From assembly GCA_009801085.1 (NCBI GenBank), contig VNWV01000032.1:1-64000 (forward strand): a stretch of 64,000 bases of DNA. Direction: 5' to 3'. The stretch comes from Lasiodiplodia sp. COLG20 (Eukaryota > Ascomycota > Dothideomycetes > Botryosphaeriales > Botryosphaeriaceae). The first letter of the stretch is position 1. Every line of letters begins with the position of its first letter. Position numbers and translations under genes: made by a program. Positions 33,212 to 50,676 of the stretch are shown one piece after another. The notes beneath the pieces were generated by a model. It ran no database searches, was not told where the DNA came from, and was given only the letters and a program-made list of their open reading frames with translations.

Positions 33212-34721
33212 ATGGCAAATTCATCCATTGCAAGGACACACACGACGAGATTACTGAGGATTCGGGGATCACACCAGAGACCATGCATCTCAAGAAGAAT
33301 CGCAACGGTCAGCACTCAGCGTTATGACTCGATCCCACAGAAAGAGGCAAGCAAGCAAAGCAGTGAAGCAGCGACGGAAACTCCCCTCCCGCCGCTGTCC
33401 GGGCTGCCGACAAGCATGCTCCTTAGATCGGTCTGCATCAACGCCATATCCTCCAAACCGCTCCTCCTCACGCCCTCTCTTTCCATCCTGTCGGCGCTTT
33501 GCAAGCCGAGAAGAAGTTCCCTCTTGAACGTTGACCGGAATCCACTGTTCCATGCCATCTTGAAGGGGACGTTCTACAAGCAGTTTTGCGCCGGGGAAAG
33601 TGGAGCCGAGGTCACAAGAACGATGCGGCGGCTGAGAGAGATCGGGTTCCGCGGCACCATCCTCACATACGCAAAAGAGACAGTCTTCGACCACCGCACA
33701 AACACGCAGCATGGGCTGGGGGTAGCGGCAAAAGAGGAGGGAAATACCACAGCCTGCGAGAACATTGCAGCATGGCGGGAAGGCACGCTCAAGACGGTTG
33801 ATCTGCTGGAGGAAGGCGATCAGCTCGCGCTCAAGTAGGTCCAGCCCTATACATGGCGGCAAGCAAAGCCGAGGATGCTAACATTGACGCACCAGGATGA
33901 CGGGCGCCGGGCCCCTGGTCAACGAGCGCTTCACGGCAGGCGATCTCCCGCCGGCGCAGATGATGGACGCGCTGGACGAGATCGCGCGGCGGTGCCGCGA
34001 CCGCGGAGCGCGCATCCTCATCGACGCCGAGTCGCAGCACTTCCAGGCGGGCATCGAGCGGGTGGGCGTGGAGCTGATGCGCAAGTACAACACGACGCCG
34101 GGCTACGCCCTCATCTACAACACGTACCAGGCGTACCTGAAGAGCACGCCGGGGCGGCTGGCGAAGCAGCTGGCACTGGCGGCCGACGAGGGTTGGACGC
34201 TGGGCCTCAAGCTCGTGCGCGGGGCGTACATGGCGTCGGACGAGCGGGCGCTGATCCACGACACGAAGCAGGCGACGGACGCGGCCTACAACGCCATCGC
34301 CCAGGGCGCGCTGCGCCAGCACATCGGCGACTTCGGCAGCACCCGCGCCTTCCCGTCGGTCAACCTGATCCTGGCCAGCCACAACCGCGACAGCGTGGTG
34401 GCGGCCCACGAGCTGCACCGCCAGCGCGTCGCCGCCGGCCTGCCCACCGTGCCCGTCGCCTTCGCCCAGCTGCACGGCATGTCGGACGAGGTCAGCTTCA
34501 GCCTGCTGCAGCTGAAGGCCAAGGGCCGGGGCCCCGAGGTGTACAAGTGCTCGACGTGGGGCAGCTTGGGCGAGTGCTTGGCCTATCTGACGCGGAGGGC
34601 GGCCGAGAATCGCGATGCTGCAGGCAGAACGGCCGACGAGTACGCGGCGCTGAAGACCGAGGTGGGGAGGCGGCTGAGGGCGGCGCTGTCGCCTTCCCGG
34701 TGGTTCGGCGGCGCGAGATAG
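33212..34721 (+). CDS. Proline dehydrogenase (PrnD/Put1 type)
   Basis: Exons 33212-33834 and 33896-34721 give 482 residues. The enzyme is an FAD-linked mitochondrial dehydrogenase that oxidises L-proline (or hydroxyproline in some relatives) to the pyrroline-5-carboxylate level and passes electrons to the respiratory chain. The N-terminus is Arg/Ser/Thr-rich and lacks acids for about 45 residues, as in a mitochondrial presequence. Core motifs follow: ILIDAESQHFQAGIE, YNTYQAYLKST, KLVRGAYMASDER, NLILASHNRDS, QLHGMSDEVSF and the late TRRAAENRD. The usual Tyr-rich VYKY segment before the end reads VYKCSTWGS here, a variation close to the substrate pocket in known structures. It heads a run of proline/hydroxyproline genes. 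Confidence 0.93.
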
Positions 34722-34868
34722 GAAGGAAATCGGATGCGATGCCGGTCCGCCTGAGGCTGCACGTGATTTAGGCGGGGTTGGGCCAGTACTTAGCGAAACG
34801 ACATGAACGTCTCAACTGTCTTTTCTAGCGTTATACAAACATTCAAACCATTTCTGTTCAGTTTCGTC

Positions 34869-35854
34869 ATGGCCGAGGTGAAAAGTGGCTCTACGCTGTG
34901 CATTCTGGGCTGCGGTAGGCACCCCGAACGCCGACTCCAAAGCGACTGACACTCACGACGTCCCGAACAGGCAACCTAGGCAAGGCCATTCTCACGAGTT
35001 TGATCGAGGCAGCCCCGAGTGATGCTGGGGCATTACCATTCACGCACTTCATCGCCTGTGTGCGGAGCGAGAAGTCGGAACAAGCCTTGAAGGAGCGCTT
35101 TTCCCAAAACTCTCACAAATTAAGCATATCTAGAGGCAACAACACCAAAGCCCTGCAGGAATCCGGCGTCGTCATCCTGGGCGCGGATCCGGCCGACATC
35201 GAGACGGTGTTGACGCAGCCCGGCGTCAGCGACGCGCTCGCCAACAAGCTGCTGATCAGCGTTGTGGCCGGCTGGACGCGCGCGAAGCTCGAGACGACCC
35301 TCTACGGCAGCGAGACGACGGCCAGCAACCAGCAACAGCCGGACGGCAGCCGCCGCGCCTGGGTGGTGCGCACACTGCCGAACATCGCGGCGCTGGTGTC
35401 GCAGTCGCTCACGGCCATCGAGATCTCGGAGCCCGCCCTGCCCGACGCCCACCTCAGCCTCGTCGAGGCCGTCTTCCAGCGCATCGGCCGCACCGTGCGC
35501 ATCGCCCCGAAGCTCATGGACGCGACCACGGCGGTCGCCGGGTCGACGCCCGCCTTCTTCGCCGTCATTTGCGACGCCTTGGTCGATGCGAGCGTGGCCG
35601 TCGGCATGCCCCGCGACGCCGCCAGCGCCATGATCTTCCAGGCCATGCAAGGCACCGCTGCCATGCTGCAGAGTGGCGTGCATCCCGGCTTGCTGAAGGA
35701 TCAGGGCACCTCGCCCGAGGGCTGCACGATTGGTGGGTTGATGGTGATGGAGGAGGCGGGCGTGAGGGGCCACATGGGGCGAGCGCTGCGAGAGGCTGTC
35801 ACGGTTGCGAGGCTGATGGGGAAGACCGAGCATGTAAATGACACAAGACAGTAG
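34869..35854 (+). CDS. Pyrroline-5-carboxylate reductase family protein
   Basis: Exons 34869-34914 and 34971-35854 give 309 residues. The glycine-rich nucleotide site (ILGCGNLGKAIL) is cut by the intron. The family tail is clear: MDATTAVAGSTPAFFAVICDALVDA, then AMQGTAAMLQ, HPGLLKDQGTSPEGCTIGGLMVMEEAGVRG, the region that forms the dimer and binds the imino acid. P5C reductase makes proline from pyrroline-5-carboxylate with NAD(P)H. Here it starts 148 bp after a proline-degrading enzyme on the same strand, so it would oppose its neighbour. It may instead act on a hydroxylated or other cyclic imine, or be a regulated branch. The substrate is not resolved. Confidence 0.9.
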
Positions 35855-36061
35855 GGCAATCGATGGTTTGGAAATTCTGAAAGTGTTGTGTTGCTTCGAA
35901 CACGTTGTGACCTGACACAATAGCCGAGTCGCCGGGTACTTACGGCGTGTGAAGGTTCAGTGGCTCTTTCCTGGAGCGGTCATGTCGAAAAACGCAAGAG
36001 TGTGCAATCTATTCCATTATCCACTCCAATCCAATCATCCAAAGTATCATCCACGCTCTGC

Positions 36062-36962
36062 TCACTCAGCCCCCAGCTTTCCATGCAAGAACCATCGCAC
36101 TTCCCTATTAGTGAGCAATCCCAACCCGAAGGCCGGGATGATTCGAACGCAGCGCACAGCCGTCGCGGCCGGCATGACTCTCCAAATGCCCGCAAGCCTA
36201 TCTGAAAGAGCCACTTTTCCAGATCGGTCGTACAGACTGAGGCCGAGCAGATGCACCGGCGTTGCCACCAATTGCGATACGACGGGCACCGTCATCTGCG
36301 TAAACGTCGCCTTGGCGTGCGGACCAGCAACGTCATCGGGAATCGATGCCGCTACGCGCGGAGGAAGCACGAAGGATCCGAAGATGGTCAGCGCGTCGCG
36401 AATCAGGAACGTGACGGTGGCCGCCTTCGGGACCGCTGCCGATGTGGGGGGTTTGATTGCGCCTTTGGCCGCCAGCTCGGCTGCGCTCCCGTAGCACTGC
36501 GCGAACCGCAGATCCTTCTTGACTCCCAGCGGGATGTTGACTGCGAGTGTCGACGCGAATACGATGGTGCCGGCTGCTGCTATCCCGAGGTCCTTTGTGA
36601 TGCTTTCGGCGCCGTTGGCTACCGCGTACGTCGCGGCGTACAGTGTCCAGACGGAGGCAAACGGTCGCGCCAGGAAGAGGTTCCTCGGTCGCTCCAGAGC
36701 AGTGAGGGTGTGAGCGCGCAGCCCACGGATAAGTGGTTTGTTGCTTGCCGCCTTTTCGACCACCACTCTAATGGCACAAGGTTAGCACATTCCTGACCCA
36801 ATGCAGCGCGACTTGCCTGTCAATGAGCGTCACCGACGGAGCCACCAATGTTGCTGTGAACGCCGCCGCGCAAAAGTCCCCAAACAACTTGCCCCCAAGA
36901 AATTGCCGGCCGTTGAGGCCATACTGCTCGCTCGAGAAGCTTTCGATTTCTTGTTGCGCCAT
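36062..36962 (-). CDS. Orphan polytopic membrane protein, possibly mitochondrial-carrier-like
   Basis: Exons 36962-36817 and 36767-36062 give 283 residues. The intron between them appears to start with GC (GCAAGT) rather than GT; only this join keeps the phase and the segment VTLIDR-VVVEKAASNKP. The protein has several moderately hydrophobic stretches with intervening basic residues (FGDFCAAAFTATLVAPSVTLIDR, FASVWTLYAATYAVANGAES, AAAGTIVFASTLAVNIPLGVKK, TFLIRDALTIFGSFVLPPRVA), in a layout reminiscent of mitochondrial carriers, but I see no PxDxxR signature. I do not recognise a studied family. It is divergent from the P5C dehydrogenase gene and shares its 322-bp promoter, so a mitochondrial role linked to proline breakdown is a reasonable guess. 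Confidence 0.75.
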
Positions 36963-37284
36963 GAAGCCTGTCGACCGTTTCTCACTGTGGATGTGCAGCA
37001 CGTCAATAGACCATTATGGTGACCCTGGTCGGATTCCTTCCCGACCGAGCGACACCAGCAATCTACCCTTTTTGGCAACCAAATGCGGTGCTGAAGTGCG
37101 GGGATATCGTGCAGCATGCTCTCTCGGGAGAGCTCCCGGATCCCGGCGTCATCCACGCCTTGCCGGTGATCTCATCCATGCAATGAGCAATGCGGGGCAG
37201 CTGGCCTCCGATAAAACATGTGCTTTTGCACCTCAAGCTGTCCTCGTCTTGCATTCTTCCTGTAATTATCACTCGTCCAAGACA
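36963..37284. promoter_or_regulatory. Divergent promoter of orphan membrane protein and P5C dehydrogenase
   Basis: It contains a perfect 6-bp inverted repeat GGTCGG-N8-CCGACC at 37027-37046, which embeds CGG-N8-CCG, a spacing style used by Zn2Cys6 proteins. No other strong element was seen. Confidence 0.45.
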
Positions 37285-39202
37285 ATGGCTGTATCCTGGA
37301 AGCTCGCGTCTAGTTCTGTTCGGCCGTCGCCGGCATTGCTGAGACCTTCGCGCGCCGTTCCCACCGGAATCCGTCTTCAACAACGGACCAAGGCAACCGC
37401 TCCATTCAGATTACCCGACCCTCGAAATGAGCCCAATGTAAGCAGTTTGTTGTCCTGAGTGGAAAGCCAACATATACTGACGCGAATTGAATCGTAGCCC
37501 GCCTATACGAGGGGCTCGCCCGAGCGGTTGAAGGTGGAAGAGGCATTGACAAAGCTCCGTTCGCAGCTGCCAGTACAAAGCGACATTTACTACAACGGCA
37601 AATCGCAACAATCATCCAAATCTTGGGACCAGGTCCTGCCATCCGAACACGCCACCACCTTCACCAACTACCCTCTAGCGTCTCGAGAGCAAGTCTCAGC
37701 TGCCATTGAGTCTGCGCTCAAGGCGAAGAAGGATTGGGAAGAGACACCGTTCGTCGACAAGGCCGCCATCTTCCAGAAGGCAGCCGAGCTGGTCACGGGA
37801 AAGTACAGATATGAGCTCATTGCAGCCACCATGCTTGGCCAGGGCAAGAACATCTGGCAGGGTGAAATTGACGCCGCCGCCGAGTTGGCAGACTTCTTCC
37901 GTCTGAACTGCAACTATGCCGCTGAGTTGCTGGAGAGGCAGCCCACCCGCGGAACCGATGGCATGTGGAGGTATGTGCATACAAAAATTGAGCTTACAGA
38001 TGGCAAACTAACACTCAAGACAGCCGCATGGAGTACAGGCCTCTGGAGGGTTTCGTTTACGCTGTCTCGCCATTCAACTTCACCGCACTTGGCGGTAGCT
38101 TAGTGTCTGGCCCTGCGCTGATGGGCAACGTTGTCCTGTGGAAGCCCTCGCAATACAACATCTACGCCAGCACCATCGTGTACAAGATTCTGCTTGAGGC
38201 TGGCCTGCCGCCGGATGTTGTCCAATTCGTACCCGGCGATGCCGAAGAAGTCACAGACGTCGCCCTCTCCCACAAGGACTTCGCCGGCCTGAACTTCATC
38301 GGCTCCTCGGACGTGTTCCGGTCTATCTATGCCCGCATCGGCGAGGGTATCGGCAAGAAGGCGTACCGCGAGTTCCCCCGCGTCGTTGGCGAGACGAGCG
38401 GCAAGAACTTCCACCTCCTCCACAACACGGCCGACGTACCCAGCGCTGTGAACCACACCATCCGCGGCGCCTTCGAGTACCAGGGCCAGAAGTGCTCTGC
38501 CACGTCTCGCGTCTACGTCCCCCAGTCGCGCTCGGAAGAGTTCCTGTCGCTCCTCAAGAAGGGCATCAACGAGATCACCATCGGCAGCCCGGACAAGGAC
38601 CTCGAGGCTTTCATGGGTCCGGTCATCCACAAGCATTCCTTCAACAAAATCAAGTCCATCATCGATGAGAGCAACAAGGACAAGGACCTGAAGCTGATCG
38701 CCGGTGGTACCTACGACGAGTCGGTCGGCTACTACGTCAACCCCACCGTCTACCAGGCCAAGTCTCCGGACCACAAGCTGTTCAACGAGGAGATTTTCGG
38801 CCCCGTGCTGGCCGTCTACGTCTACCCGGATGCCGAGTGGACCAACATCCTCCAGAGCGTCGACCAGAACGGTGGCGGCCTCGCCCTGACCGGCGCCGTG
38901 TTCGCCCAGAACCGTAGTGTCATTCGCCAGGCCGAAGACGCGCTCCGCTACTCTGCCGGCAACTTCTACATCAGTAAGTTTCCCTATGACGGTAATCATT
39001 GTTCAAAAAGCTAACATGGCTGTGCTTAGACTGCAAGACGACTGCGGCGCTGATCGGCCAGCAATCCTTCGGCGGTGCTCGGTCAAGTGGTACTAATGAC
39101 AAGGCGGGCAGCTCTGACATCCTGCGCCGCTTCACTAGTCCCCGCATGATTAAGGAGGAGTTCTTTCCGCAGACTACGTTCAAGTACCCCAGCAACCACT
39201 AG
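37285..39202 (+). CDS. Delta-1-pyrroline-5-carboxylate dehydrogenase (PrnC/Put2, ALDH4 type)
   Basis: Exons 37285-37437, 37498-37970, 38024-38973 and 39030-39202 give 582 residues. It oxidises glutamate-5-semialdehyde (open P5C) to glutamate with NAD+ in mitochondria. It accepts 4-hydroxy-P5C in animals. A Ser/Arg-rich, acid-free N-terminus looks like a presequence. Key parts are SPFNFTALGGSLVSGPALMGN, WKPSQYNIYAS, FIGSSDVF, the glutamate in VVGETSGKNFH, the nucleophile in GQKCSATSRVYVP and the late EEIFGPVLAVYVY and QQSFGGARSSGTNDK. All are diagnostic for ALDH4 rather than generic aldehyde dehydrogenases. In this cluster it completes proline oxidation, and could also oxidise 2-oxoglutarate semialdehyde if the hydroxyproline route runs (inference). 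Confidence 0.95.
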
Positions 39203-39952
39203 TAGAAGTGCAGCATGAGTAAACGGATGGGTTGTATTAAAAAGGGAATGGATATTATTCAATGAAATCAAAGTTCATCTACGTAATTGGGCTGCCTGTT
39301 GTGCGTTTTGCATTGTAGCTTCTATTTTGCGGTTTCATCCAGCTATTCAATCGAGCACGACGAGCCTGCCAATCCCTTGTTTTCGGAGTCAGTGTGAAGA
39401 TGCAACAATAAAATTTACGGACCTTACTCCCAGTTATTTTGCGAGCTCGTGAACTCTAATCACTGTTGAGAATGATGCATGCAGCATATGACAGAGGCTC
39501 GTCGGGTAGGAGACTGGTCTGGGTCTCGCCGGGTGGGTGCGGCGTGCGGGAGTTCTAATTGGCTCTGGCGCTCGAACATCAGATACCAAATGCCCCGCTG
39601 CAGCTCCCGCTGATATGCGTACTATCTCCCACTTTGATATCATTCCGGGGTAGAATCCGGTAATCGGACCCGAATGTGGCGTGAGTGCTGCGGGGTGACT
39701 GACTTGGGTAGCAGAAAGCGGGGGTGTTTAGTCTCACCGGGACGTCTCCCGAGTTATCTCTGCTTCCCCGCAGCTCAACCCGGGATCTAGTTTCTGATCC
39801 CGACTCGCGGGGACCACGCGATATGGTGATGCCGCTAGGGCATGGCGAGTATGCGGCGACCGTGCTGGGAATTCCGGAGTGTGCACTTATATGTCAATGT
39901 GCACCCAGTTGCGATAAGGAGTCAGTAATATTCCCGATACGTCATCTTAACC
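39203..39952. promoter_or_regulatory. Promoter region of FAD oxidase with a 22-bp perfect dyad
   Basis: A perfect inverted repeat CGGGATC-N8-GATCCCG spans 39781-39802, about 150 bp before the ATG. It has outer CGG/CCG triplets and could be an operator or form a hairpin. An everted CCG-gtaat-CGG lies at about 39658-39668. The left part is the P5C dehydrogenase 3' region. No gene is seen. Confidence 0.5.
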
Positions 39953-41304
39953 ATGGACCGCAACGAGCCTATCATTGTTGTCGGCGCCGGTGCATTCGGC
40001 TTATCGACGGTATTCCACCTGTCGCAGGCGGGCTATACCAACATCTCCGTCTTTGAGCAGGACAGCCAGGTCCCTCCCCGCCAATCAGCCGCCAACGACA
40101 TCAACAAGATTGTTAGAGCTGAATACGAAGATCCGTTCTACACCGAGTTGACTGTGGTATGTCGGATGAGTCTTCCCTTCCAGATGATTCACTGACCTCT
40201 GGCCTCTAGAAAGCCATTGCTGCGTGGAAAACACCCCTCTTCGCCCCGCACTTCCACCAAACCGGCTTCCTGCACTGCGTCTCGGGAGCGGCACCGGACA
40301 AGGCGCTGGGCACGCTCAAGCGCTTCCAGGCGGCGGCCGAGAGCCACTCGCGCATCAACAAGCACCTCGTCCCCATCGACAGCGACAATGACATCCGGCG
40401 GCTGTTCTGGCAGTACGAAAATGCGCCGCTGACGGGCTGGCACGGCTACCTGAACCGCTTCGACGGCTACGCGCACTCAGGCGCCGCGCTGCAGGGCATC
40501 CACCGCGCGACGGCGGCCCGCGGCGTGCGCTACTTCCTCGGGGCGCGCGTGTTGGAGATCGTGTACGACCGGGACAGCAAGAGGGCGGTCGGCGTGCGCA
40601 CCGCCGACGGCACCATCCACGCCGCCAAGCGCATCATTGTCGCCTGCGGCGCGGCGGCGGCCAGGCTGGTGCCGGCGGCCGGGCGGCAGCTGGGCGTCGT
40701 GGCGAAGAGCTGGAGCGTGGCCCACGTGCGGCTGACCGACGACGAGACGTCGGCCCTGCGCGGCATCCCCGTCACCTACGCCCGCGACCTCGGCTTCTTC
40801 TTCGAGCCCGACCCGCGCACCAACCTGCACAAGCTGTGCCCCATGGGCGGCGGCTACGTCAACACCGACCCCCGCTCCGGCCTCTCGCTGGCCCCCACTG
40901 TCGAGGACAGCGCCTTCATGCCGCCCGACGACGAGAAGAAGGTCCGCGAGCTCCTGCGCCAGACCCTGCCCGCCCTGGCCGACAGGCCGCTCGTGCAGAA
41001 GAGCCTGTGCTGGTTTGCCGACACGAGCGACTCGGATTTCATCATCGACTACGTGCCCGGGACCGACAAGTCCGTCGTGCTGTTGTCCGGGGACTCGGGA
41101 CATGGGTTCAAGATGTTCCCCATATTCGGGGAGTGGGTGCGGGACCTGTTCGAGGCCCCCGATGGGCGTCAGCCGGTGGCCCAGTGGAGGTGGAAGGAGA
41201 AGAAGTCGGAGAAGGATAGTAATTGGGGAGGAGATGTAAGCTGGAGACTGGGAGAGACCAAGGAGTTCTCAGAGATCATGCCCTCGAGGGAGTCAAAGCT
41301 CTGA
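39953..41304 (+). CDS. FAD-dependent amine/imino-acid oxidase (DAO/MSOX superfamily)
   Basis: Exons 39953-40156 and 40210-41304 give 432 residues. The dinucleotide motif IIVVGAGAFGLSTVFHLSQ and the following FEQDS bind FAD. The C-terminal half has KSLCWFADTSDSDFIIDYVPG and SGDSGHGFKMFPIFGEWV. In the sarcosine-oxidase/fructosyl-amine-oxidase branch the cysteine of the C-x3-T-x-D motif carries the covalent flavin. These enzymes oxidise secondary amines such as sarcosine, pipecolate, saccharopine, D-proline analogues or Amadori products. Placed between P5C dehydrogenase and a hydroxyproline epimerase, the most attractive role is oxidation of cis-4-hydroxy-D-proline to the pyrroline, but that is inference. 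No peroxisomal SKL is present; the end reads ESKL. Confidence 0.85.
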
Positions 41305-41620
41305 ACACATAGTCATAGCTCACTTTAATGTCATGTGTTGATGTCCTTGAAAATATTCCATCACTTGCACGTATTTCGCAGTGTAAAGTCGTGGCGAGTA
41401 ATACTGGATGTCCACAGCAAACTTCGCTGGGAAGAAGTGCATTTTATCTTGTCGAGACAGCTACCTAAACTTTTTCGCCCCGCACATACAAGAGGTGCCT
41501 GGTTATCACAAGGCTATGGCGTTGCCGCCCATGCTCTCTGAGTTTACAACTACAAGTTCGAAAGTGTAAAAAGGAAACCCAAACAGAAACCTCGCTATGC
41601 ATTGCAAAGGACCCTCCAAT
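41305..41620. other. Convergent 3' intergenic region
   Basis: It separates the 3' ends of the FAD oxidase and the Zn2Cys6 regulator genes. No gene, repeat or RNA is visible. Confidence 0.4.
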
Positions 41621-44228
41621 CTACCAGATGCTGTGCTCCAGAATTTCATGAGACATCCACTCGTTATCCCCGCTGTCAATCGCATTCACTGTGTCCATAA
41701 TCTGGGCACCCGCCAAACCACCGTCGAAGCATATTTCATCAAGAATGCCAGAAATGGGAGAAGGTAAAATGTTGCCTCCAACACACTGTGCCGCTGCCTG
41801 CTGCATCGAAGCCCCGAGCTGTACTTCGGATGGTGGGTGACCCTGAAGCACGTCCTGCGGAGCATTGAAAGAGTTGGACGCGCGACGAGAATGCATCTGC
41901 GACAGCTGACAGAGCATGCTGTCTAGCTTCCGCAGCTCGACGATCCGGTACTCGGCAACAACATTTCCAGCCCCCGCCATCTCATCGAAGATTGCGTATG
42001 CTTTGTCCAGCCACGTCGCACGGTTGCCAACCAGCTGCGGGTCAAGTGAAGGAGCCAGTAGGATGTTTACCGTCGATACAGAGATGGCCTCGAGGTCGAA
42101 GGGTAGGAAAGTTTCTGTAGTTAATGGTGAGTCCATCTGGTTTTACCAAGACATGAATGTTTGAGCTCACCCAACAAATGCTGCGCTCTAACGCAACTCA
42201 AGATGCTGATCATTTGCTGAGAAGAATCCATACACATCTTCGCCAAGTTCAAGGTGGTCTGGGAGGAATGTAGGGTGATTCGGTCTGATCCTGAACTCTC
42301 AAAGCGGATCTTCAGGAAACAAAACAACAGTGGCCGTGTTGCAAGAACGATACACTAAATCACAAAGGTCAACCCTCCACTCCCTTCGAAAACAAGAATG
42401 GAAGACCCCAATGCAGGACTTACTTGATGATAGAGCAGATGTAAGTAAGCATATGTCCGCGAGATTCCGCTGATAGCGTTGCCCAACTGTAATGGGAATG
42501 AATCCCGAAGTTCGTCGGCAAGGTGTGCGATGCTGGCGAGGACCTCCTTCGTGCTAAGCAGAAATTTGCTGTTGAGCCGGCCGTCGGCCCCGTAGACGCC
42601 TGTGATGACTGCACTTAGATACAGGAAGCGTGGGCGACTCGATTTACTCACCCCTGTTGATACGGGCGATAGCCCGAGACAGCTTGATTTGCATGCTCAG
42701 GGCTGCAGTCCTCTGGATGGAGCCTGAAAAGGTCGGAAGATCAGGATGCACGTCGTCGTCGTGGATGGACTGAGGAAGCCCCATCAAGGATGTCATTTCT
42801 CGGTCCAAAACATATGTCGTCCACCAGGCTCTGCGGCATCTCTCGACGTGAGCCTCTCCGAGATGGCGCACTGGCATATCGGTGTGCATGCCATGGCAAA
42901 GTGCAATCCTCATGGCTTGTCCGATCTTGGCATTCATTAGCTTGGACTATGAGTTTGGGAGCTGCAGACTTACGTAGTTGTGCGCCGCATCTCGGTAGTC
43001 CAAGCACTGAAGGTACAAGGAGATGGAACAGAGAATTTCAGTGGAGACCAACGGCCGTCTCTCCAGTACGATTGTATTCGGTAGCAGCTGGACGGCTTTT
43101 ACAAAGTAATCGGTACCAGGGGGTCGCTTTCCTTGGTTTCTCTGAGTGGTAAATGCTTTACCAAAAGCAAGGATGATTAAAAAGTGAATGTACCATAGAT
43201 CGGCCTCGGCAATCTTGTGGGTAGGATCCGAATAGAAGTCGTATAAACTGTCCATAAAGGACATCTCGTCGAACAGATGGAACATTTGTCCACAGTGGAA
43301 CTTGACAGCATTGATTAGGTAGATGGCGTAGTCGAGTGTTGGTAAGGAAGGAGTTTCTAGATCTGCTGCCGTCCGACGGTCGTTCCAATTCAGGTCGTAT
43401 GCCGCTCCGTCAAAGAGAAGAGTTGTGCTGGGTACGCAGGTCTGGTGTACGTATTGGTGTGTCATGCACAGAAGGCGGCGAGTGAATGACCAATTCGACG
43501 AGGTTCCGAGATAGACTAAACTGCCGTCAGATAACTTACACCGCCAGCAGAGGTAGCAAAGGCGTACATGTTCTCCCATCGCTGGCTGCCATGAAAGTGG
43601 AAGGGCCGGTGGATAGCGGATTTGTCAAAGTAGAGGCCACGAGATCGGAACGCGAGCCGGAGCGGGTGCTTTGATCGTTTACCGGGGCAGCTACAGACTC
43701 GTTTGCTCCTTCAGACCCGTCGTCGGAATCGGCTGCAACAGAATCAGCTCTGCTTGATAACACAGACGTGGCTGAGATAGAGACAAACCACCGTCGGATG
43801 CTCCATCGGCATCTTGGCTGGCACACACGGACCCGGGGGTGGCACATTCTGCACCACTACGGCGCTTCCAGGCTTCGATCTTGCGCTCCAAGTCAATAAT
43901 GTACCTGGTCGTAGTTAGCAGGTATTGCTCAACATCAGAGTAAAGGCCGGCTACCCTCTGGTGACGAGGATTTTTTGGTCCCGTTCGTCAAAATCGCAGG
44001 ATAGTTTGCGTTTGCTACAAGCTTCGCAGGGCTGGGAGCCGGAGCATTTGATCTTCTGGCGGCGGCATCTCACGCAACTGAAGTCAAAGTTAGCTCGATG
44101 ATGCAAGGGCGGGCCGTTGCGGATGTGACGTACGCGTTGCAGGAGCGTCGCTTTGTGACCCGACCTCTGGCATTTCCCGGCTCCGCTGGACCTTCAGGCA
44201 TCCTAGAATGCCTGGATTGGGGAGGCAT
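41621..44228 (-). CDS. Zn2Cys6 transcription factor in the proline/hydroxyproline cluster
   Basis: Nine predicted exons (44228-44134, 44077-43955, 43904-43792, 43732-43683, 43585-42974, 42925-42652, 42599-42424, 42354-42171, 42114-41621) stay in phase and give 706 residues. The zinc cluster CVRCRRQKIKCSGSQPCEACSKRKLSC has C-x2-C-x6-C-x5-C-x2-C-x6-C spacing and starts just after the first intron. A short coiled segment (YIIDLERKIEAWKRR) follows. The fungal-specific domain is clear: LDYAIYLINAVKFHCGQMFHLFDE, ALCHGMHTD and ERCRRAWWTTYVLDREMTSLMGLPQSI. The fourth intron (43682-43586) is the weakest call. In Aspergillus nidulans the prn cluster regulator PrnA is of the same class. By position this is the likely pathway activator. 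Confidence 0.87.
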
Positions 44229-44638
44229 GGCAGCCTGTCGGCTCTGAGTGCAGTCGATGGGATGACCAGGCGCTGTGGACACGGCCTTGCTGCTGCCTCT
44301 CTGTTCTTATCTCGTGATGTGGATCTGCAGCCGAAATGCGGGGTAAAAACCAGCGGCTTTAGGCCGCATCGGGCCTATCACGGTTGCTGCCGAGATAAAC
44401 CCTCATGCACCTCCTGTCCACGCGGCAGTGCTGATAAAGGAAACGGAATCCGCAAGCGTCCAGATGCCTCTGCTCTGCCCTGTTCTCTTTTGCATTTGTC
44501 ACAATGGGCGAAAGGGCTCTGCAACGAGGGTCAACGACGTTGGCCGTGGTCATTGATAAGATAACCAGTTTTGACTAGTCCTTCCGACATGTTCCTATCA
44601 GCCTGGCTGAAACATCTAACGTCTCTACATGAAAAGTC
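44229..44638. promoter_or_regulatory. Promoter of the cluster regulator
   Basis: A palindromic CGGAATCCG (CGGA-A-TCCG) lies at 44444-44452, about 215 bp before the regulator ATG, and may serve autoregulation. The region also holds the 3' end of the neighbouring DapA-family gene. No other gene. Confidence 0.4.
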
Positions 44639-45652
44639 CTACAACAAAGACCGGCCAGCCTGCGAAGCCTGTTCAATCTTTCCCACCTCGGCCATGATCT
44701 CCTCAACCGCCTTCTTTGCCGCCGGTCCGACTTCGTCATACGGCGCTCTGGGCTTCAGCTTCTCCACCGCACCTTCAATGCCCGCCAGCCTGGCCGAGTA
44801 GCGCGCCACGGCGTACTTGGTCGCCGCGATGCCGCTCTTGCACGGACTCTCGGCCAACGACGTCTTCTTCTGCAGCTTCATGGCCTCCTCGACGCGCCCC
44901 TGCTTGTATAGTTCGTAGACCTTCACCGTGGTCCGGGGGAAAACGTTGGCAAAGGCGCCGATGCAGCCCGCGCTGCCGGCAGCCAGGCCGCCGATCAGGA
45001 AGTCTGCCTGGCCGCCAAAGGTGGCGAACTCGTCGGGGCTGAAGGTGGCGGCCAGGCGGGTGATCTTGGCGACGGAGCCGCACGTCAGCTTGACGCCGAC
45101 GACGTTGGAGCGGCCCGAGGGACTGGCGGCGGCGCTGGCGCGCACGATGGCCGTGATGGTCTCCGAGTCGATGTCGACGCCGTTGCAGACGCCCGGGAAG
45201 TTGTAGACGACGACGGGCAGCGGCGCCTTGGCCGCGACCTCGGCGAAGAAGGTCTTGACGACGCCCATGGTCGTGGCCTTGCCGAAGTAGGCGGGCGGCA
45301 GCACGAGAAGGTAGTCGGCACCCGCGTCCTTGGCGTCGCGCGCCAGCTCGAGCGTCTGCTTGGTCGAGTGGGCGCCCACGCCCGCCATCAGCGGGTACCC
45401 GGGCCCCACGGCCGCCCGCGCCGCCCGGATCACCTGCGCCCGCTCCTCGCGCGTCAGCAGGAACGCCTCGGAGTTGGTGCCGAGCACCACGATGCCCGTC
45501 AGCCCGGACTGCGCCAGGTACGCAAAGTACCGCGACTGCGCCGCCAGGTCGACCGTGTCGGTCGCGTGGTCGAAGAAGGTGACTGCCGGGCACCACACGC
45601 CTGCTGGCGGGACGTGGGGGAGAGAGGATGATGAGGCCGTTCTGGATCCCAT
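44639..45652 (-). CDS. DapA-family (DHDPS/NAL superfamily) lyase or deaminase
   Basis: A single exon of 337 codons. The ATG at 45652 is the first in frame. It is a TIM-barrel Schiff-base enzyme: GTNSEAFLLTREER (the GTTGE-type pyruvate or carboxylate site), the catalytic tyrosine in VVVYNFPG and the Schiff-base lysine in VVGVKLTCGSV. The superfamily includes dihydrodipicolinate synthase, 4-hydroxy-2-oxoglutarate aldolase (HOGA) and the bacterial pyrroline-4-hydroxy-2-carboxylate deaminase HypD. Fungi make lysine by the aminoadipate route, so a DapA role is excluded. With a hydroxyproline epimerase and an FAD oxidase nearby, the deaminase role giving 2-oxoglutarate semialdehyde is favoured, with HOGA-type cleavage as the alternative. 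Confidence 0.9.
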   Translation of the reverse strand: MGSRTASSSSLPHVPPAGVWCPAVTFFDHATDTVDLAAQSRYFAYLAQSGLTGIVVLGTNSEAFLLTREERAQVIRAARAAVGPGYPLMAGVGAHSTKQTLELARDAKDAGADYLLVLPPAYFGKATTMGVVKTFFAEVAAKAPLPVVVYNFPGVCNGVDIDSETITAIVRASAAASPSGRSNVVGVKLTCGSVAKITRLAATFSPDEFATFGGQADFLIGGLAAGSAGCIGAFANVFPRTTVKVYELYKQGRVEEAMKLQKKTSLAESPCKSGIAATKYAVARYSARLAGIEGAVEKLKPRAPYDEVGPAAKKAVEEIMAEVGKIEQASQAGRSLL

Positions 45653-46278
45653 GGTGGGCAAATTGCGGGAGGATGGAATGGTAGAACAATCAGCGAATCG
45701 CGGGATTGGGGCAAAAAGACTTCAGTGAAAGCTGCGCTTGACAACCCTCTATTCCGCAGGCTTCTTCATTCTCTACTTATTTGTTACGGGGTCTGAGAAC
45801 CCTGCTGCAAAGGGAGTTGGAGTCCATCGTGAGCCATGGACGCGGATCGAGTGCCGTGACGACGACCGGGAAAAGAGAAGACGGCAACTGATTGGTAGGA
45901 TTTCATGTTCATGCTCGTTTGATAAACCGGCACACCCACCGTAGCGGCCTATCAGCGCTCGCGCTAGTGATCCGTTGCCCGTATCAGGCAAGTCAGTGTC
46001 GGATACAGTCCCGTAGCACTTTGTGGGGGACGCGGGGGTTACCGTACGTGAAATCGGGGCGTGGAGAACATCTGCCAGCCACCGTTCATCTACCGAAGCA
46101 TTGGTGCGTCCTACGTCATCTTTTATGGGCGGGTGCCAACGGATCTGCTAGCAGGTCAAGTGGGGCTGGCGCCCTTCTAAATTAGACATCATTCAAGCAG
46201 TCGTCTTGACACAAATGCCCTCAGTAATGCCACAATCTTACATATTGAACCTTGTATTGAACTAATTCTACCCGCTGA
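45653..46278. promoter_or_regulatory. Promoter of the DapA-family gene and transporter 3' region
   Basis: A CGG-N8-CCG dyad (CGGATACAGTCCCG) is at 46000-46013, about 350 bp before the ATG, with the same spacing as the one upstream of P5C dehydrogenase. No gene is seen. Confidence 0.4.
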
Positions 46279-47852
46279 CTACACCGAGTTTGAGTTGTCG
46301 GCACAGGACCATGCCGCTGAGCCGCCTGACGCTTTGTAGTCGGCCACGATACCAACAATGGCACCGTACGTACCGGCCACCATCAGAAAGGTGCCAGACG
46401 CAATGACAAAGACGCACCAGCAAACCATAAGAGTCCACTTGGTAGACGCCCCCGTCTTGCGCTTGGCCCAGTTGTCGTAGAGCCACATGCAGCCCATGGG
46501 CTGGAAGCACATGAGCGTTCCGAGAAGCGCCCCGACAAGCGCAACGAGGCCGTAGAAGACGGGGATGGCGCTGGCTATGATGTACGCGATCAATGCAACA
46601 CTGAACGTGCAGCCAAGCCAGGTAACCCAGTGGATGACGGAATTCTCTGTGAGGTGGTGGGACCCGCGGAGAATGCGGACGAAGGCATACTTGGCCGGGT
46701 AGTGGGTCATGAGCGTCGTCGTGACGATCAATCCGGGCAGAGCCAACCCGTAGCACACCTTCTTCATAACCACTCCAGCCGAGCCCAATGCAGGCGATGC
46801 AACGTATGATCCGCAGTAGTAGTAGACGACGGTGCCGATGGCGATATAGATCGACGTCACGCACGTCTGGCAGATCATCAACGAGCGAGTGTAGTACCGA
46901 GGATCGCGCATCTCCGACGCGATGGAGAAAAACGCGGGCGTGCCGGCGTAAGCGAAGACGAGCGAGGCCAGAGCTGACGTAGCTTCGGCAAAGGTCGGGT
47001 TGCCGAAGAGTTTGTAGTCAGACGCCCATTCGCCTCCCTGCGGCGCTGCGTCAGGGCGATCTTGAACTCCGACGGCCACGGTAAGGGCGAAAACTAGCAA
47101 CCGTCAGATCAATTCAAGGGGAACACCAGAACTGAGAGGCTTACTCGATGTCACAATTCCAGCCAAGCCGATCCATGCCAGCCATGTAATGCGTCCGAGC
47201 GTTTGAATGCTCCCGCAAATGAACCCCACGATGGCAGAAACTGCAACGAAGACGGCCGTGCAGGTACCATGCGTTGAAAGGGCATTCAGCCCGATTGAAA
47301 TGCTGAGCATGCCAGATCCGGAACAGCAAATCCACCCTGTGAAACGTCAGAGGCCATCTCTTCCCGCGTTGCCACTGTACTCACAAAGTGCAAATGCAAT
47401 TGCAAATATCTCACGCCCAATCCGGCCAAACAGCAGGTCACCAACATCGTCGATGCTGTAGACTTGGCCGTGGCGCAGTTTGAAAACGCCAATCATATAC
47501 CCCGACCAGGTGGTGATGGTGGCGATGGTACACAGGCAAATGATGCCGGGGATGAGGCCGAGCGCGTCAAAAACGGCCGGGATGGACAGGACGCCCAAAC
47601 CAACTTGCGTTTTCATCATGAGAGCAATTGCGCCTAGCCATCCAACCTGTGCTTCGTTAGCAATCATACGGCCAAAGGAGATTGAGAATCGCGCACGTTG
47701 CGGTAGTTCGGGCCCCGTTCCGTAATGTCACCGAAAACTGCATCTTCTTGGACAGGGTTTGCTTCATTCTCTTCTTTCTTAATCGACGAGGGCCGGAGAG
47801 CAACCTCCGGGTCGAGCTCTCTCTTCTCCGATGTCTGTGACATATTGATCAT
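46279..47852 (-). CDS. Amino acid transporter, Aa_trans (AAAP) family, Mtr-like
   Basis: Exons 47852-47697, 47646-47385, 47336-47145 and 47093-46279 give 474 residues with about eleven membrane helices. After a charged cytosolic N-terminus come VGWLGAIALMMKTQVGLGVLSIPAVFDALGLI (the family's first helix), TTWSGYMIGVFKLRH, then SLVFAYAGTPAFFSIASEMRDPRYYTRSL, the conserved loop of fungal neutral and aromatic amino acid permeases such as Neurospora Mtr. It is proton-coupled and sits in the plasma membrane in studied relatives. The prn cluster of Aspergillus uses a different permease family (PrnB, AAP/APC). Here an AAAP member may bring in hydroxyproline or proline (inference). An alternative start is the ATG at 47843. 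Confidence 0.9.
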
Positions 47853-48436
47853 GCGCTGGAAGCGTTCCTGCAAAGGACAAACGGTTGAGGTGAAGGAATC
47901 GTTAGACCCGGCCGCTTATAACTCCCCAGGTCTTGGCCCGCTATCTAGGATGGGTCTCCTGGTGGCTCGTGCTACAGCCCCGGAAACAGGCTTTTTAGGT
48001 TAAGGCCCTATGTCATACCCCGCGTGCTTTCAGCTCCATCCTATTTAGATTAGTCGCCCGACGTTGACACGAGTGGGGTAGGGCGCCTCATATACGCCAC
48101 CGGGATGCTTCCCGAAGTTGCGGCCCAAATGTCCGAGCGCGCTGCTATCTGAGATATTTGTTTAAGACAACAGAGGCTTTCCACATTGATAAGCCTACGA
48201 ACACTCTGAGAGCACAAGATAAACTCATCAATGGCATGATAGATATCTTTGCGACGTGGGCTGCGATAGCATTATCACACTAATCTTAGCATACGAATGG
48301 TCTATCGGTGCCATCTCCATATAAATTGACAGACGTAAACGAGGCATTATCAGATTACGACGCAAAAGCCACACTGATATCAGGTCATGATCTATTCGCT
48401 TTAGGCCATCTGGCCGTGCTAGACTAAGCCTCCATC
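47853..48436. other. Intergenic upstream of the amino acid transporter
   Basis: This holds the transporter promoter and the epimerase 3' region. The middle part is AT-rich. No gene or clear dyad was found. Confidence 0.4.
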
Positions 48437-49492
48437 CTACGCCTGCCCGTCGTGACCCGGAATATGCCAGTGGTCTCCAACCCGGTATCCCACGGGAAAG
48501 GGGTCGGTAGGATCAAGCGTAGATTGCCTGAAGCCCGTGAGCCAGGCTCTTCCCTTCACTCTGGGATGCACGGCGTTGAACTCCCCAACCTTAGTTGTGC
48601 CGCGAATCTGACAAATGAATTCTGTTCCAATGATGCTTCGGTGCCGGAACGTCTCTCCCTCTTTCAACTGACCCCTAGCATGGAGAACTGCCATGCGAGC
48701 ACAGGTGCCAGTTCCACAGGGGCTCCTGTCGAGCCTGCCTGGCGAGACAATGACGGTGTTGATCGCAGTCTTGCTGTTTTCTGGGCCGTCTTGCAATGGC
48801 TCAGTGAATTCAAGGACCGTAACGCCACGGATGTCCGGGTTCTCTGGGTGGACCGGTGTGTACGCGTCCTGGACCGCACGCTTGATCTTCTCGCCAACTC
48901 GAACAAGATCGGCTCCGCACTCGTTGCGAATAGCAAGGCCGACGGACGGTGCATCTACAAGCACGTAATGCATGCCGCCCCAAGCAATATCGACAGACAC
49001 TGTGCCCAAGCCAGGCACTTCGACCTTGAGGTCCAGGACGTGCACAAACGATGGCACATTGTCGAATGCGACCGCCTTGCACTTGCCACCTTCGCAATCC
49101 GCCGTAACACCGATGAGCCCAGCCGCAGTATCTAAGCTGAGCCGCGTTGTTGGCTCTTTCATCTCCACCATGCCCGTCTCGAGAAGGACGGTAGTTGTCG
49201 CAATTGTATTGGCACCGGACATGGGAGGGTACTCGTCGCTCTCCATGGTCAGGAATGCTGCGTCGGCTCGAGGGTCGCAAGGGGCTAGAATCAAGTTCAT
49301 GCACTGCGAGGATCGTCCACGAGGCTCCTGCATGAGCAGCTGGCGCGTGTCGTCTGCTTTGTCGCGGAAGTAGACCAGCTTCTCGTACATGCTCGAGCAA
49401 CCGGTGGGGTCCAATACGCCGCCGACAATGACATCCCCAATCTCACCCTCGGCATGGACACCGACTATCGAGATTGAACGAGGGGCTGGCAT
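48437..49492 (-). CDS. Proline racemase-family protein, probable hydroxyproline 2-epimerase
   Basis: A single exon of 351 codons; the ATG at 49492 begins MPAPRSISIVGVHAEGEIGDV. The family works by two facing acid/base residues. Here the second is a cysteine in DRSPCGTGTCARMA. The first, normally Cys in an MCGH motif, is serine in PPMSGANT, and the following His is Ala. Published surveys divide the family into Cys-Cys (proline racemase, 4-hydroxyproline epimerase), Cys-Thr (trans-3-hydroxyproline dehydratase) and Ser-Cys (4- or 3-hydroxyproline epimerase) groups. This protein falls in the Ser-Cys group. A hydroxyproline epimerase starting the D-hydroxyproline route fits the neighbours, but 3-hydroxyproline chemistry cannot be ruled out. 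Presence in a fungus raises the question of bacterial origin. Confidence 0.85.
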   Translation of the reverse strand: MPAPRSISIVGVHAEGEIGDVIVGGVLDPTGCSSMYEKLVYFRDKADDTRQLLMQEPRGRSSQCMNLILAPCDPRADAAFLTMESDEYPPMSGANTIATTTVLLETGMVEMKEPTTRLSLDTAAGLIGVTADCEGGKCKAVAFDNVPSFVHVLDLKVEVPGLGTVSVDIAWGGMHYVLVDAPSVGLAIRNECGADLVRVGEKIKRAVQDAYTPVHPENPDIRGVTVLEFTEPLQDGPENSKTAINTVIVSPGRLDRSPCGTGTCARMAVLHARGQLKEGETFRHRSIIGTEFICQIRGTTKVGEFNAVHPRVKGRAWLTGFRQSTLDPTDPFPVGYRVGDHWHIPGHDGQA

Positions 49493-49866
49493 TGTAACGT
49501 CGGGCAGTGGAGTCTTGGAAAAGAAGGTGAAGTCAATTGGATCGTAGAGAAGGGTTTCGTGTATCAATCAACAGCAAGGCATACAAAGCAGCTCAAACGA
49601 CTTTCTATATTTCTTGGTCGGGCACCCGAGCAATGGTGAAGGTTTCGGATGCGTCATCCGTTAACCGGAGCTACCGACCGACCGGCTTTGTACCGACCGA
49701 TAACTGGACTCGGATGATCCGACATGAGCATAACCGTGGGCGTGGGACCAGTCGGGACGGCCGAGATCAGAACGCTTCGGAGTCGGATGCGGGGACCGAA
49801 ACTTGAGCTGTATTTCTATTAACGAGTCTCATGCTGTGGGCAATCATTCAACCAGACTCTTTCACA
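49493..49866. promoter_or_regulatory. Divergent promoter of epimerase and SDR genes with two CGG/CCG dyads
   Basis: Two inverted repeats are visible: CGGATG-CGT-CATCCG at 49646-49660 (CGG-N9-CCG) and CGGATGATCCG at 49711-49721 (CGG-N5-CCG). Between them are two copies of TACCGACCGA at 49672-49681 and 49691-49700. The second dyad differs by one base from CGGAGGATCCG upstream of proline dehydrogenase. A Zn2Cys6 activator is the expected binder. Confidence 0.55.
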
Positions 49867-50676
49867 ATGGCACACGAGACTACTAGATCCAGAGCAACAG
49901 AACCCCTTCATACCCGTACGCTGCAGGGCAAGGTCGCCATTGTCACGGGCGGCTCTCGCGGCATCGGCAGGGGGATAGCTCTCGAGCTCGCCAACCGCGG
50001 TGCCAATGTCCTCATCACATACGCAAGCGCGAAGGCCCAAGCAGAGGAGGTTACTCGCGAGATTCAGGCGCTTGGAGTTGATTCCATTGCGGTTGCTGCC
50101 GCGGGAACGGATCGAACAGCACCCCAAGCCATCGTCAAAGCTGTTACCGACAGATGGGGAACCATCGACATTATCGTCAACAACGCGGCTACCGGAGGCG
50201 AGTTCGGACTGCTTGAAACGACGACCGAACTTTTCGAGACACAAACCACCGTCAATCTTTGGTTCCCGCTTTTCCTCATCAAAGAGGCGGTCCCCTACTT
50301 CGGACCTGCGCCGAGAATCGTCAACATGTCCAGCATATATGCGCGGAGTGGCCACTCCGGGTGTTTGGTCTATTCAGCCTGTAAGGGAGCTATGGAGAGT
50401 GCTACTCGGTCGCTGGCCCGAGAGCTTGGGCACAAGTACAACGCTACGGTCAACTGCGTCAATCCGGGCCCTGTGAACACTGATTTGTGGGCCAAGGCAG
50501 TGGAAACTCCAGAAGCCCAGAAATTCTGGGACGCAGCCATTCAAGACACGCCTGCGGCTCCTAGAATCGCAGAGGTGGATGATGTGGCACAAATCATTGC
50601 TTTCCTTTGTGAGGAAAGAAGCCGCTGGACGACGGGGAGCGTGGTGAATGCAAATGGAGGTATGCTGTTCGTGTAG
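49867..50676 (+). CDS. FabG-like short-chain dehydrogenase/reductase
   Basis: A single exon of 269 codons. It is a classical SDR: TGGSRGIGRGIALELA cofactor loop, IDIIVNNAATGG, MSSIYA with the serine, and the catalytic YSACKGA (Tyr-x3-Lys), then CVNPGPVNTD and the C-terminal RWTTGSVVNANGGM. SDRs of this type reduce ketones or oxidise secondary alcohols with NAD(P). It shares a promoter with the epimerase and so may act on a hydroxy- or oxo-proline intermediate, but the family is too broad to name a substrate. The MAHETT start at 49867 is chosen over an upstream in-frame start because the fold begins about 30 residues later. It resembles the SDR at 54.4-55.4 kb. Confidence 0.9.
   Translation: MAHETTRSRATEPLHTRTLQGKVAIVTGGSRGIGRGIALELANRGANVLITYASAKAQAEEVTREIQALGVDSIAVAAAGTDRTAPQAIVKAVTDRWGTIDIIVNNAATGGEFGLLETTTELFETQTTVNLWFPLFLIKEAVPYFGPAPRIVNMSSIYARSGHSGCLVYSACKGAMESATRSLARELGHKYNATVNCVNPGPVNTDLWAKAVETPEAQKFWDAAIQDTPAAPRIAEVDDVAQIIAFLCEERSRWTTGSVVNANGGMLFV

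Follow-up and report, generated by a model that had tools for sequence, protein, structure and literature searches.

Overview of the locus

Does a group of ten neighboring genes in the fungus Lasiodiplodia sp. COLG20 serve the catabolism of hydroxyproline as well as proline, and if so, by a bacterial or an animal type of route? The genes lie in the window analyzed here, which covers the initial 64 kb of the 132,653-bp contig C26; the genome totals 43.5 Mb. They encode proline dehydrogenase (PRODH), pyrroline-5-carboxylate (P5C) reductase (P5CR), a membrane-like protein, P5C dehydrogenase (P5CDH), a FAD amine oxidase, a Zn2Cys6 transcription factor, a DapA-family protein, an amino acid transporter, a proline-racemase-family protein and a short-chain dehydrogenase/reductase (SDR). 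All ten classes listed in a preliminary description of the locus were confirmed in place by Pfam and NCBIfam matches and spliced gene models, and the genes look intact. That description had proposed a complete-looking bacterial pathway for trans-4-hydroxy-L-proline, with the animal route as an alternative, an interpretation that is partly supported overall. We see about an even chance that the segment at ~33.06-48.11 kb is a co-regulated catabolic cluster for L-proline and trans-4-hydroxy-L-proline, ending in an animal-type aldolase step. What the sequence itself supplies is the enzyme classes and a promoter site recurring across six promoter regions; the substrates are those that this combination would fit.

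A common promoter site in the cluster

CGG half-sites are a common target of Zn2Cys6 factors. By scanning the intergenic stretches, we identified a strict palindrome, CGGGA-N4-TCCCG, of which CGG-N8-CCG is the relaxed form. The strict palindrome has three copies in the window, all in cluster promoters: at 37125..37138, 147 bp upstream of P5CDH in the promoter divergent with the membrane gene; at 39738..39751, 202 bp upstream of the oxidase gene; and at 48101..48114, ~250 bp upstream of the transporter gene. Three copies were reached in none of 100 shuffles, and ~0.008 copies are expected per 18 kb. Among 400 simulated 18-kb stretches scored for 192 classes of palindrome form, no class reached three copies and 31 stretches reached two. 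The whole genome contains 19 strict sites, including the three in this cluster, compared to 53 sites for a reversed control pattern, so that the genome as a whole shows no enrichment of the strict form. The flanks read around the 16 other sites, where open reading frames (ORFs) were judged by eye without a family search, show no recognizable hydroxyproline-related gene.

The relaxed site is present in all six promoter regions, with 10 sites in 2,147 bp: one each upstream of PRODH (33062..33075), P5CR (34731..34744) and the transporter gene, two each in the P5CDH/membrane gene and oxidase promoters, and three upstream of the DapA-family gene (45843, 45928 and 46000, spanning 45843..46013). No other spacing between 0 and 14 exceeds three sites. 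In GC-matched draws from 125 kb of the genome, neither 10 sites nor all six regions were reached (0/5,000; mean 0.90); the draw pool took in 16 loci chosen for holding the strict site, which makes this control conservative. Markov simulations likewise never reached 10 sites (0/1,000). Because the six promoter regions share a common site, their co-location exceeds chance, and the status of the cluster as a putative regulon is well supported by this shared site. CGG-N8-CCG is absent from the racemase/SDR promoter. The shared site turns a guess from co-location into a testable regulon.

HOG-aldolase-like protein and P5C dehydrogenase

The gene of the DapA-superfamily protein (44639..45652, minus strand; PF00701) is a single open frame. 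The best PDB match of its product is 3qfe (467 bits), which we take to be a Coccidioides protein; dihydrodipicolinate synthase (DHDPS, 101 bits) and human 4-hydroxy-2-oxoglutarate (HOG) aldolase (HOGA, 95 bits) score much lower. A tree of 16 sequences places the fungal DapA-family clade with human HOGA and the DapA proteins of two Mesorhizobium epimerase-like loci with DHDPS (support 100/99, long branches flagged). The window protein is ~24% identical to these two Mesorhizobium proteins and 28% identical to the second DapA protein of one of the loci (L035). A candidate identity as pyrroline-4-hydroxy-2-carboxylate deaminase is not supported, the protein falling on the other side of the tree split from the DapA proteins of these Mesorhizobium epimerase-like loci.

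Residue conservation was counted in the best 120 of 1,535 matches. According to the available part of PMC3188589, Asn78 of HOGA is important for substrate binding and corresponds to Thr in E. coli DHDPS. The Asn78 equivalent is kept in 120/120 homologs listed, within a loop G[ST]N[SA]E that has Ser or Ala in place of the second Gly of G-X-X-G-E. The Schiff-base Lys motif VGVKLT is found in all 120 as well, and the window protein has the Tyr-bearing YNFP motif, as fits a DHDPS-type fold. By residue pattern the protein looks like a HOG aldolase with two HOGA residues conservatively replaced; because these residues, Ser198 and Ser77, are replaced, we describe it as HOGA-like rather than as HOGA.

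The aldehyde dehydrogenase (ALDH) of the cluster is of the ALDH4 type. Its gene (37285..39199, plus strand; exons 37285-37437, 37498-37970, 38024 or 38039-38973, and 39030-39199) encodes a protein that scores above the TIGR01236 cut-off (684.8 vs 613.6 bits), and all 8 PDB sequences matched at E<=1e-100 carry the P5CDH name. The animal route named as an alternative in the preliminary description thus gains support from both enzymes, the grouping of the DapA-family protein with human HOGA and the ALDH4 type of the dehydrogenase. Altogether, the enzyme set favors a function in proline and hydroxyproline catabolism with a HOG-aldolase-like end step.

Amine oxidase

The FAD amine oxidase of the sarcosine/fructosyl-amine-oxidase family (39953..41304, plus strand; exons 39953-40156 and 40210-41304, 432 aa; PF01266) is only distantly related to its best paralog in the genome, which is 32% identical (147 vs 851 bits). 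A 35-residue segment at C40:85784-85888, 63% identical to the oxidase, may be what is left of a second copy, or one of its exons. The oxidase and the racemase-family protein are, respectively, 97% and 99% identical to L. theobromae counterparts, the closest named proteins among the matches listed. Using the AlphaFold model of the oxidase (mean pLDDT 88.5), Foldseek retrieved fructosyl amine oxidases first (ranks 1-24, query TM 0.80-0.87, 26-30% identity) followed by sarcosine oxidases, among them complexes containing L-proline, D-proline and L-thioproline.

Among the best 120 of 884 matches, a C-terminal tripeptide resembling the peroxisomal targeting signal type 1 is present in 65 homologs in its strict form and in 108 in a broader form; the window oxidase ends in SKL. 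The segment CPMGGG is found in 120/120 homologs listed, whereas three aligned fructosyl-amine oxidases have CDE, so that Asp-Glu is exchanged for Pro-Met. This acidic pair, which follows the Lys-x-Cys segment of fructosyl-amine oxidases, presumably binds the sugar. A fructosyl amine oxidase identity is not supported, given the Pro-Met replacement in the oxidase and all 120 homologs. An imino-acid substrate appears plausible. The family occurs in many Aspergillus, Penicillium, Fusarium, Colletotrichum and Botryosphaeriaceae species among the matches listed, where its members are named only by similarity. Our model predicts that this widespread fungal family consists of imino-acid oxidases.

Relation to other proline utilization genes and the regulator

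PRODH (33212..34721, plus strand; exons 33212-33834 and 33896-34721, 482 aa; PF01619) and P5CR (34869..35854, plus strand; exons 34869-34914 and 34971-35854, 309 aa) open the cluster. P5CR belongs to the ProC family, scoring above the TIGR00112 (proC) cut-off (210.2 vs 196.75 bits). The spliced frames of PRODH, P5CR, P5CDH and the oxidase are unbroken, with GT-AG introns. The preliminary reading of a cluster for proline or imino-acid catabolism that holds prnC- and prnD-type paralogs and a Zn2Cys6 gene of its own is supported.

A second proline locus was found on contig C56 (2.767-2.778 Mb), containing a P5CR-like gene, a Zn2Cys6 factor, a flavin-reductase-like gene, PRODH and P5CDH. The window proteins are 38-44% (PRODH, in pieces), 30% (P5CR) and 50% (P5CDH) identical to the C56 copies, and C67 encodes another P5CDH, more similar to that of the window (54% over 548 residues). 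Given this separate prn-like cluster, the window set is not simply the proline cluster of the genome, and it is probably a diverged, specialized paralogous set. In the C56 cluster, CGG-N8-CCG occurs at three places in 16 kb, none of which could be placed by eye in a PRODH, P5CDH or P5CR promoter. The flavin-reductase-domain ORF of that cluster lies at L033:8291-9430. At the PRODH position equivalent to PutA Tyr540, the window copy and the paralogs (L005, L007, L008 and L009) fall into a Cys type (window, C56 and C1) and a Tyr type (C12 and C23).

The Zn2Cys6 gene (41624..44230, minus strand; ends and exon boundaries approximate) has its PF00172 zinc cluster in the ORF at 43954-44193, and its product would be the likely reader of CGG-N8-CCG. 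The factor is 32-38% identical to the C56 factor in its middle pieces, and four paralogs elsewhere in the genome outscore the latter. No PrnA-type sites (CCGG-N6/7-CCGG or CCGG-N-CCGG) were found between 33 and 51 kb, a weak test in this genome, as the stretch read of the C56 prn-like cluster also has no such sites. The proposal of a PrnA-class regulator is accordingly weakened.

Proposed pathway and the aminotransferase step

The proposed pathway would begin with uptake of imino acids by the transporter (46279..47852, minus strand; PF01490; exon boundaries approximate, ATG at 47852 or 47843). PRODH would oxidize proline, and PRODH and/or the peroxisomal oxidase, the candidate hydroxyproline-specific first enzyme, would convert hydroxyproline to pyrroline-3-hydroxy-5-carboxylate. 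The shared P5CDH would then yield glutamate or 4-hydroxyglutamate, and an aminotransferase encoded elsewhere would produce 4-hydroxy-2-oxoglutarate, which the DapA-family protein would cleave as a HOG aldolase, giving pyruvate and glyoxylate. P5CR may recycle or detoxify pyrroline intermediates, and the adjacent Ser/Cys racemase/epimerase and SDR would be at most accessory. In this pathway the oxidase and the DapA-family gene are the two that are likely hydroxyproline-specific. A more specific version, which we put forward tentatively as a possibility, is a fungal hydroxyproline regulon that combines a duplicated prn set, a peroxisomal hydroxyproline oxidase of the sarcosine oxidase family in place of animal hydroxyproline dehydrogenase (HYPDH), and a HOG aldolase, and that is read through a new Zn2Cys6 site, CGG-N8-CCG, with the core CGGGA-N4-TCCCG.

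In animals, the step between P5CDH and HOGA is catalyzed by aspartate aminotransferase, as stated in the available part of PMC8779045. Aminotransferase loci are present elsewhere in the Lasiodiplodia genome. The closest DapA paralog (55% identity, C4:320001-330000) adjoins a class I/II aminotransferase gene, of the aspartate type by eye. CGG-N8-CCG occurs ~340-350 bp upstream of both genes and the strict palindrome ~2 kb downstream of the aminotransferase gene; we did not count these sites as regulon evidence, the 10-kb stretch holding six CGG-N8-CCG in all. In Talaromyces verruculosus, the oxidase gene model (P0025) includes a fused PF00155 aminotransferase domain (again aspartate type by eye), which suggests that oxidase and aminotransferase genes are adjacent there. 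The Talaromyces segment is 44-45% identical, about equally, to three loci of the Lasiodiplodia genome, and for this reason the aminotransferase links are supportive only.

Linkage of the oxidase and DapA-family genes in other fungi was read by eye from locus tags and contigs among the best 120 of 884 (oxidase) and 1,535 (DapA) matches, with some contigs coming from different assemblies. The two genes share the same longest contig in three of the 15 species listed for both, Neofusicoccum ribis, Macrophomina phaseolina and Fusarium nematophilum. Their locus tags are consecutive or next-but-one in N. ribis (008258/008256) and F. nematophilum (012937/012938), and the genes are also paired in one metagenome, both on 5,046-bp stretches. 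From the linkage in these three species, the two genes seem either to have stayed linked or to have become linked in two or more ascomycete classes.

Plant extensins and animal collagen are rich in 4-hydroxyproline, and the use of this imino acid by fungi has no gene-level description in the literature searched. That literature, which left out most subscription papers, contained no fungal 4-hydroxyproline gene cluster. The fungal hydroxyproline enzymes found there were 3-hydroxyproline enzymes only (PMC5144071, available in part). The animal-style route, which is the more probable one here, would be new for fungi, if confirmed.

Several observations weigh against a hydroxyproline regulon with an animal-type end step. 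The spacing N8 was picked after inspection, out of 15 spacings; CGG-N8-CCG also occurs in coding DNA, with 28 sites at 32.5-51 kb, of which 10 are in the six promoters and 18 elsewhere; and the stretch taken as the promoter of the Zn2Cys6 gene holds none. The DapA tree has long branches and a single HOGA sequence, and the deaminase role of the Mesorhizobium DapA protein is a putative one deduced from its neighbors, with no NCBIfam model scoring over its cut-off. The PRODH position equivalent to PutA Tyr540, which we take to contact C4 of proline and to discriminate proline from hydroxyproline, is Cys in the window copy and equally in the C56 (prn-like cluster) and C1 paralogs, and it was dropped as a non-discriminating marker of a PRODH2-type hydroxyproline dehydrogenase. 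Among the DapA-family homologs listed, the HOGA Ser198 position is Thr in 120/120 and the Ser77 position is Thr in 113/120; both changes lowered the efficiency of human HOGA, as given in the available part of PMC3188589. A tblastn search of the window with one aminotransferase query found no such gene, and the oxidase and DapA genes are not on the same longest contig in 12 of the 15 species, 11 of them Eurotiales.

Racemase-family protein, SDR and alternative readings

The proline-racemase-family gene (48437..49492, minus strand; PF05544) is a single open frame, and the SDR gene (49831..50676, plus strand; PF00106/PF13561; ATG at 49831 or 49867) is divergent from it. The racemase-family protein carries PMSGAN and DRSPCGTG, with both the Ser and the Cys conserved in 120/120 homologs listed. 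Three rhizobial Ser/Cys proteins are 43-44% identical to it, and relatives were found at seven prokaryote loci. No NCBIfam model scores over its cut-off for the protein (best T3LHypDht, 380 vs 550), and a Mesorhizobium Ser/Cys protein gives a similar value (366). The genome also encodes two 67%-identical Ser/Cys paralogs (C4:508001-518000 and C5:181001-191000) and one Cys/Thr protein on C12; the C5 paralog adjoins a Zn2Cys6 factor related to those of the window and the prn-like cluster. Oxidase and racemase genes share one longest contig (6 Mb; by eye) in one of the 11 species listed for both. The racemase/SDR promoter holds no CGG-N8-CCG and has CGG inverted sites at spacings 5 and 9 instead. 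Two palindromes in this divergent promoter (49493-49866), CGGAT-N5-ATCCG and CGGAT-N-ATCCG, are unlike the cluster site. Among the evidence found, the racemase-family gene is tied to the set by adjacency only, and the inclusion of it and the SDR gene in the regulon is not supported; the racemase may add D- or cis-hydroxyproline as substrates.

It is improbable, in our estimate, that the locus encodes the bacterial-type route, in which the racemase epimerizes trans-4-hydroxy-L-proline, the oxidase forms pyrroline-4-hydroxy-2-carboxylate, the DapA-family protein deaminates it and the ALDH yields 2-oxoglutarate. All four classes do lie within ~12 kb, and two of the three rhizobial relatives of the racemase (in Mesorhizobium, L035 and L036) adjoin DapA and ALDH genes. 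In keeping with the epimerase of the preliminary description, the Ser/Cys pair and MSGxN are those of a proven 4-hydroxyproline epimerase (4HypE) family, e.g. Agrobacterium vitis 4HypE, in the available part of PMC4113996. However, the three best-scoring solved relatives (4k8l, 1tm0 and 4k7g) have Thr rather than Cys at the second position, and 4k7g is named 3-hydroxyproline dehydratase. The bacterial pathway moreover fails as a unit: the DapA-family protein belongs to the HOGA clade, the ALDH is a P5CDH, the oxidase is sarcosine/fructosyl-amine-oxidase-like and gives no tblastn match to the Mesorhizobium locus with a D-amino-acid-dehydrogenase-like gene, and the racemase/SDR promoter is devoid of the shared site, one copy (49450) lying just within the racemase coding start. 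In N. ribis, the closest racemase relative among the matches listed (79%) lies on a different contig from that of the oxidase and DapA genes.

A rather unlikely but better-placed alternative is that the cluster serves proline and another imino acid (pipecolate, thioproline, or N-alkyl- or fructosyl-proline), where the oxidase would liberate either proline or a pyrroline/piperideine, with the DapA-family protein engaged in an unrelated aldol cleavage. The oxidase is closest by sequence and fold to fructosyl-amine and then to sarcosine oxidases, its fold matches include the proline and thioproline complexes, and P5CR enzymes also use piperideine-6-carboxylate and thioproline, as reported in the available part of PMC12899673. 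Yet this alternative leaves a HOG-aldolase-like gene with the shared promoter site unexplained, and the Pro-Met in place of Asp-Glu argues against the fructosyl variant. Very improbable is a chance juxtaposition of two unrelated sets, a duplicated proline-utilization set and an oxidase-DapA pair of other function; the separate longest contigs of the two genes in the Eurotiales species listed for both (by eye) would fit it, but promoters of both sets carry the inverted site at an identical spacing. We thus retain the proline and hydroxyproline cluster with the HOGA-like end step as the preferred reading.

Other genes of the locus

The uncharacterized membrane-like protein gene (36062..36962, minus strand; ORF 36,062-36,781) has an approximate 5' end, the ATG at 36962 being a guess; searches with its product yielded nothing in Pfam at E<=10 or in the PDB at E<=1. 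A copper amine oxidase is encoded directly beyond the cluster, at 52452-53963 of the window.

Comparison with known systems

The prn cluster of Aspergillus nidulans consists of prnA, prnX, prnD, prnB and prnC (PMC5983819, available in part). Similarly, the window cluster brings an amino acid transporter together with PRODH, P5CDH and a Zn2Cys6 gene; in contrast, it adds P5CR, the oxidase and the HOGA-like gene, has no PrnA sites, and coexists with the separate prn-like cluster on C56. Bacterial trans-4-hydroxy-L-proline operons, as outlined in the available part of PMC4113996, combine an epimerase of the proline racemase superfamily (PRS, Ser/Cys type), an oxidase of the D-amino-acid oxidase (DAO) type, a DHDPS-superfamily protein and an ALDH. 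The same superfamilies are present in the window, whereas its DapA-family protein, oxidase and ALDH are of other subfamilies and its epimerase promoter has no shared site. Fructosyl amine oxidases and monomeric sarcosine oxidase share with the window oxidase the fold, an aligned Cys and the peroxisomal-type C terminus, and differ from it by the low identity (26-30%) and, for fructosyl-amine oxidases, by the Asp-Glu that is Pro-Met in CPMGGG. Finally, the animal hydroxyproline pathway includes HYPDH/PRODH2, P5CDH, aspartate aminotransferase (AspAT) and HOGA1, according to the available parts of PMC8779045 and PMC3188589. The PRODH, P5CDH and HOGA-like classes occur in the window and aminotransferase loci elsewhere in the genome. 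Unlike the animal pathway, the window genes are clustered, the candidate first enzyme is a peroxisomal-type oxidase, and in the HOGA-like protein Ser77 and Ser198 are replaced by Thr and no mitochondrial presequence is apparent by eye.

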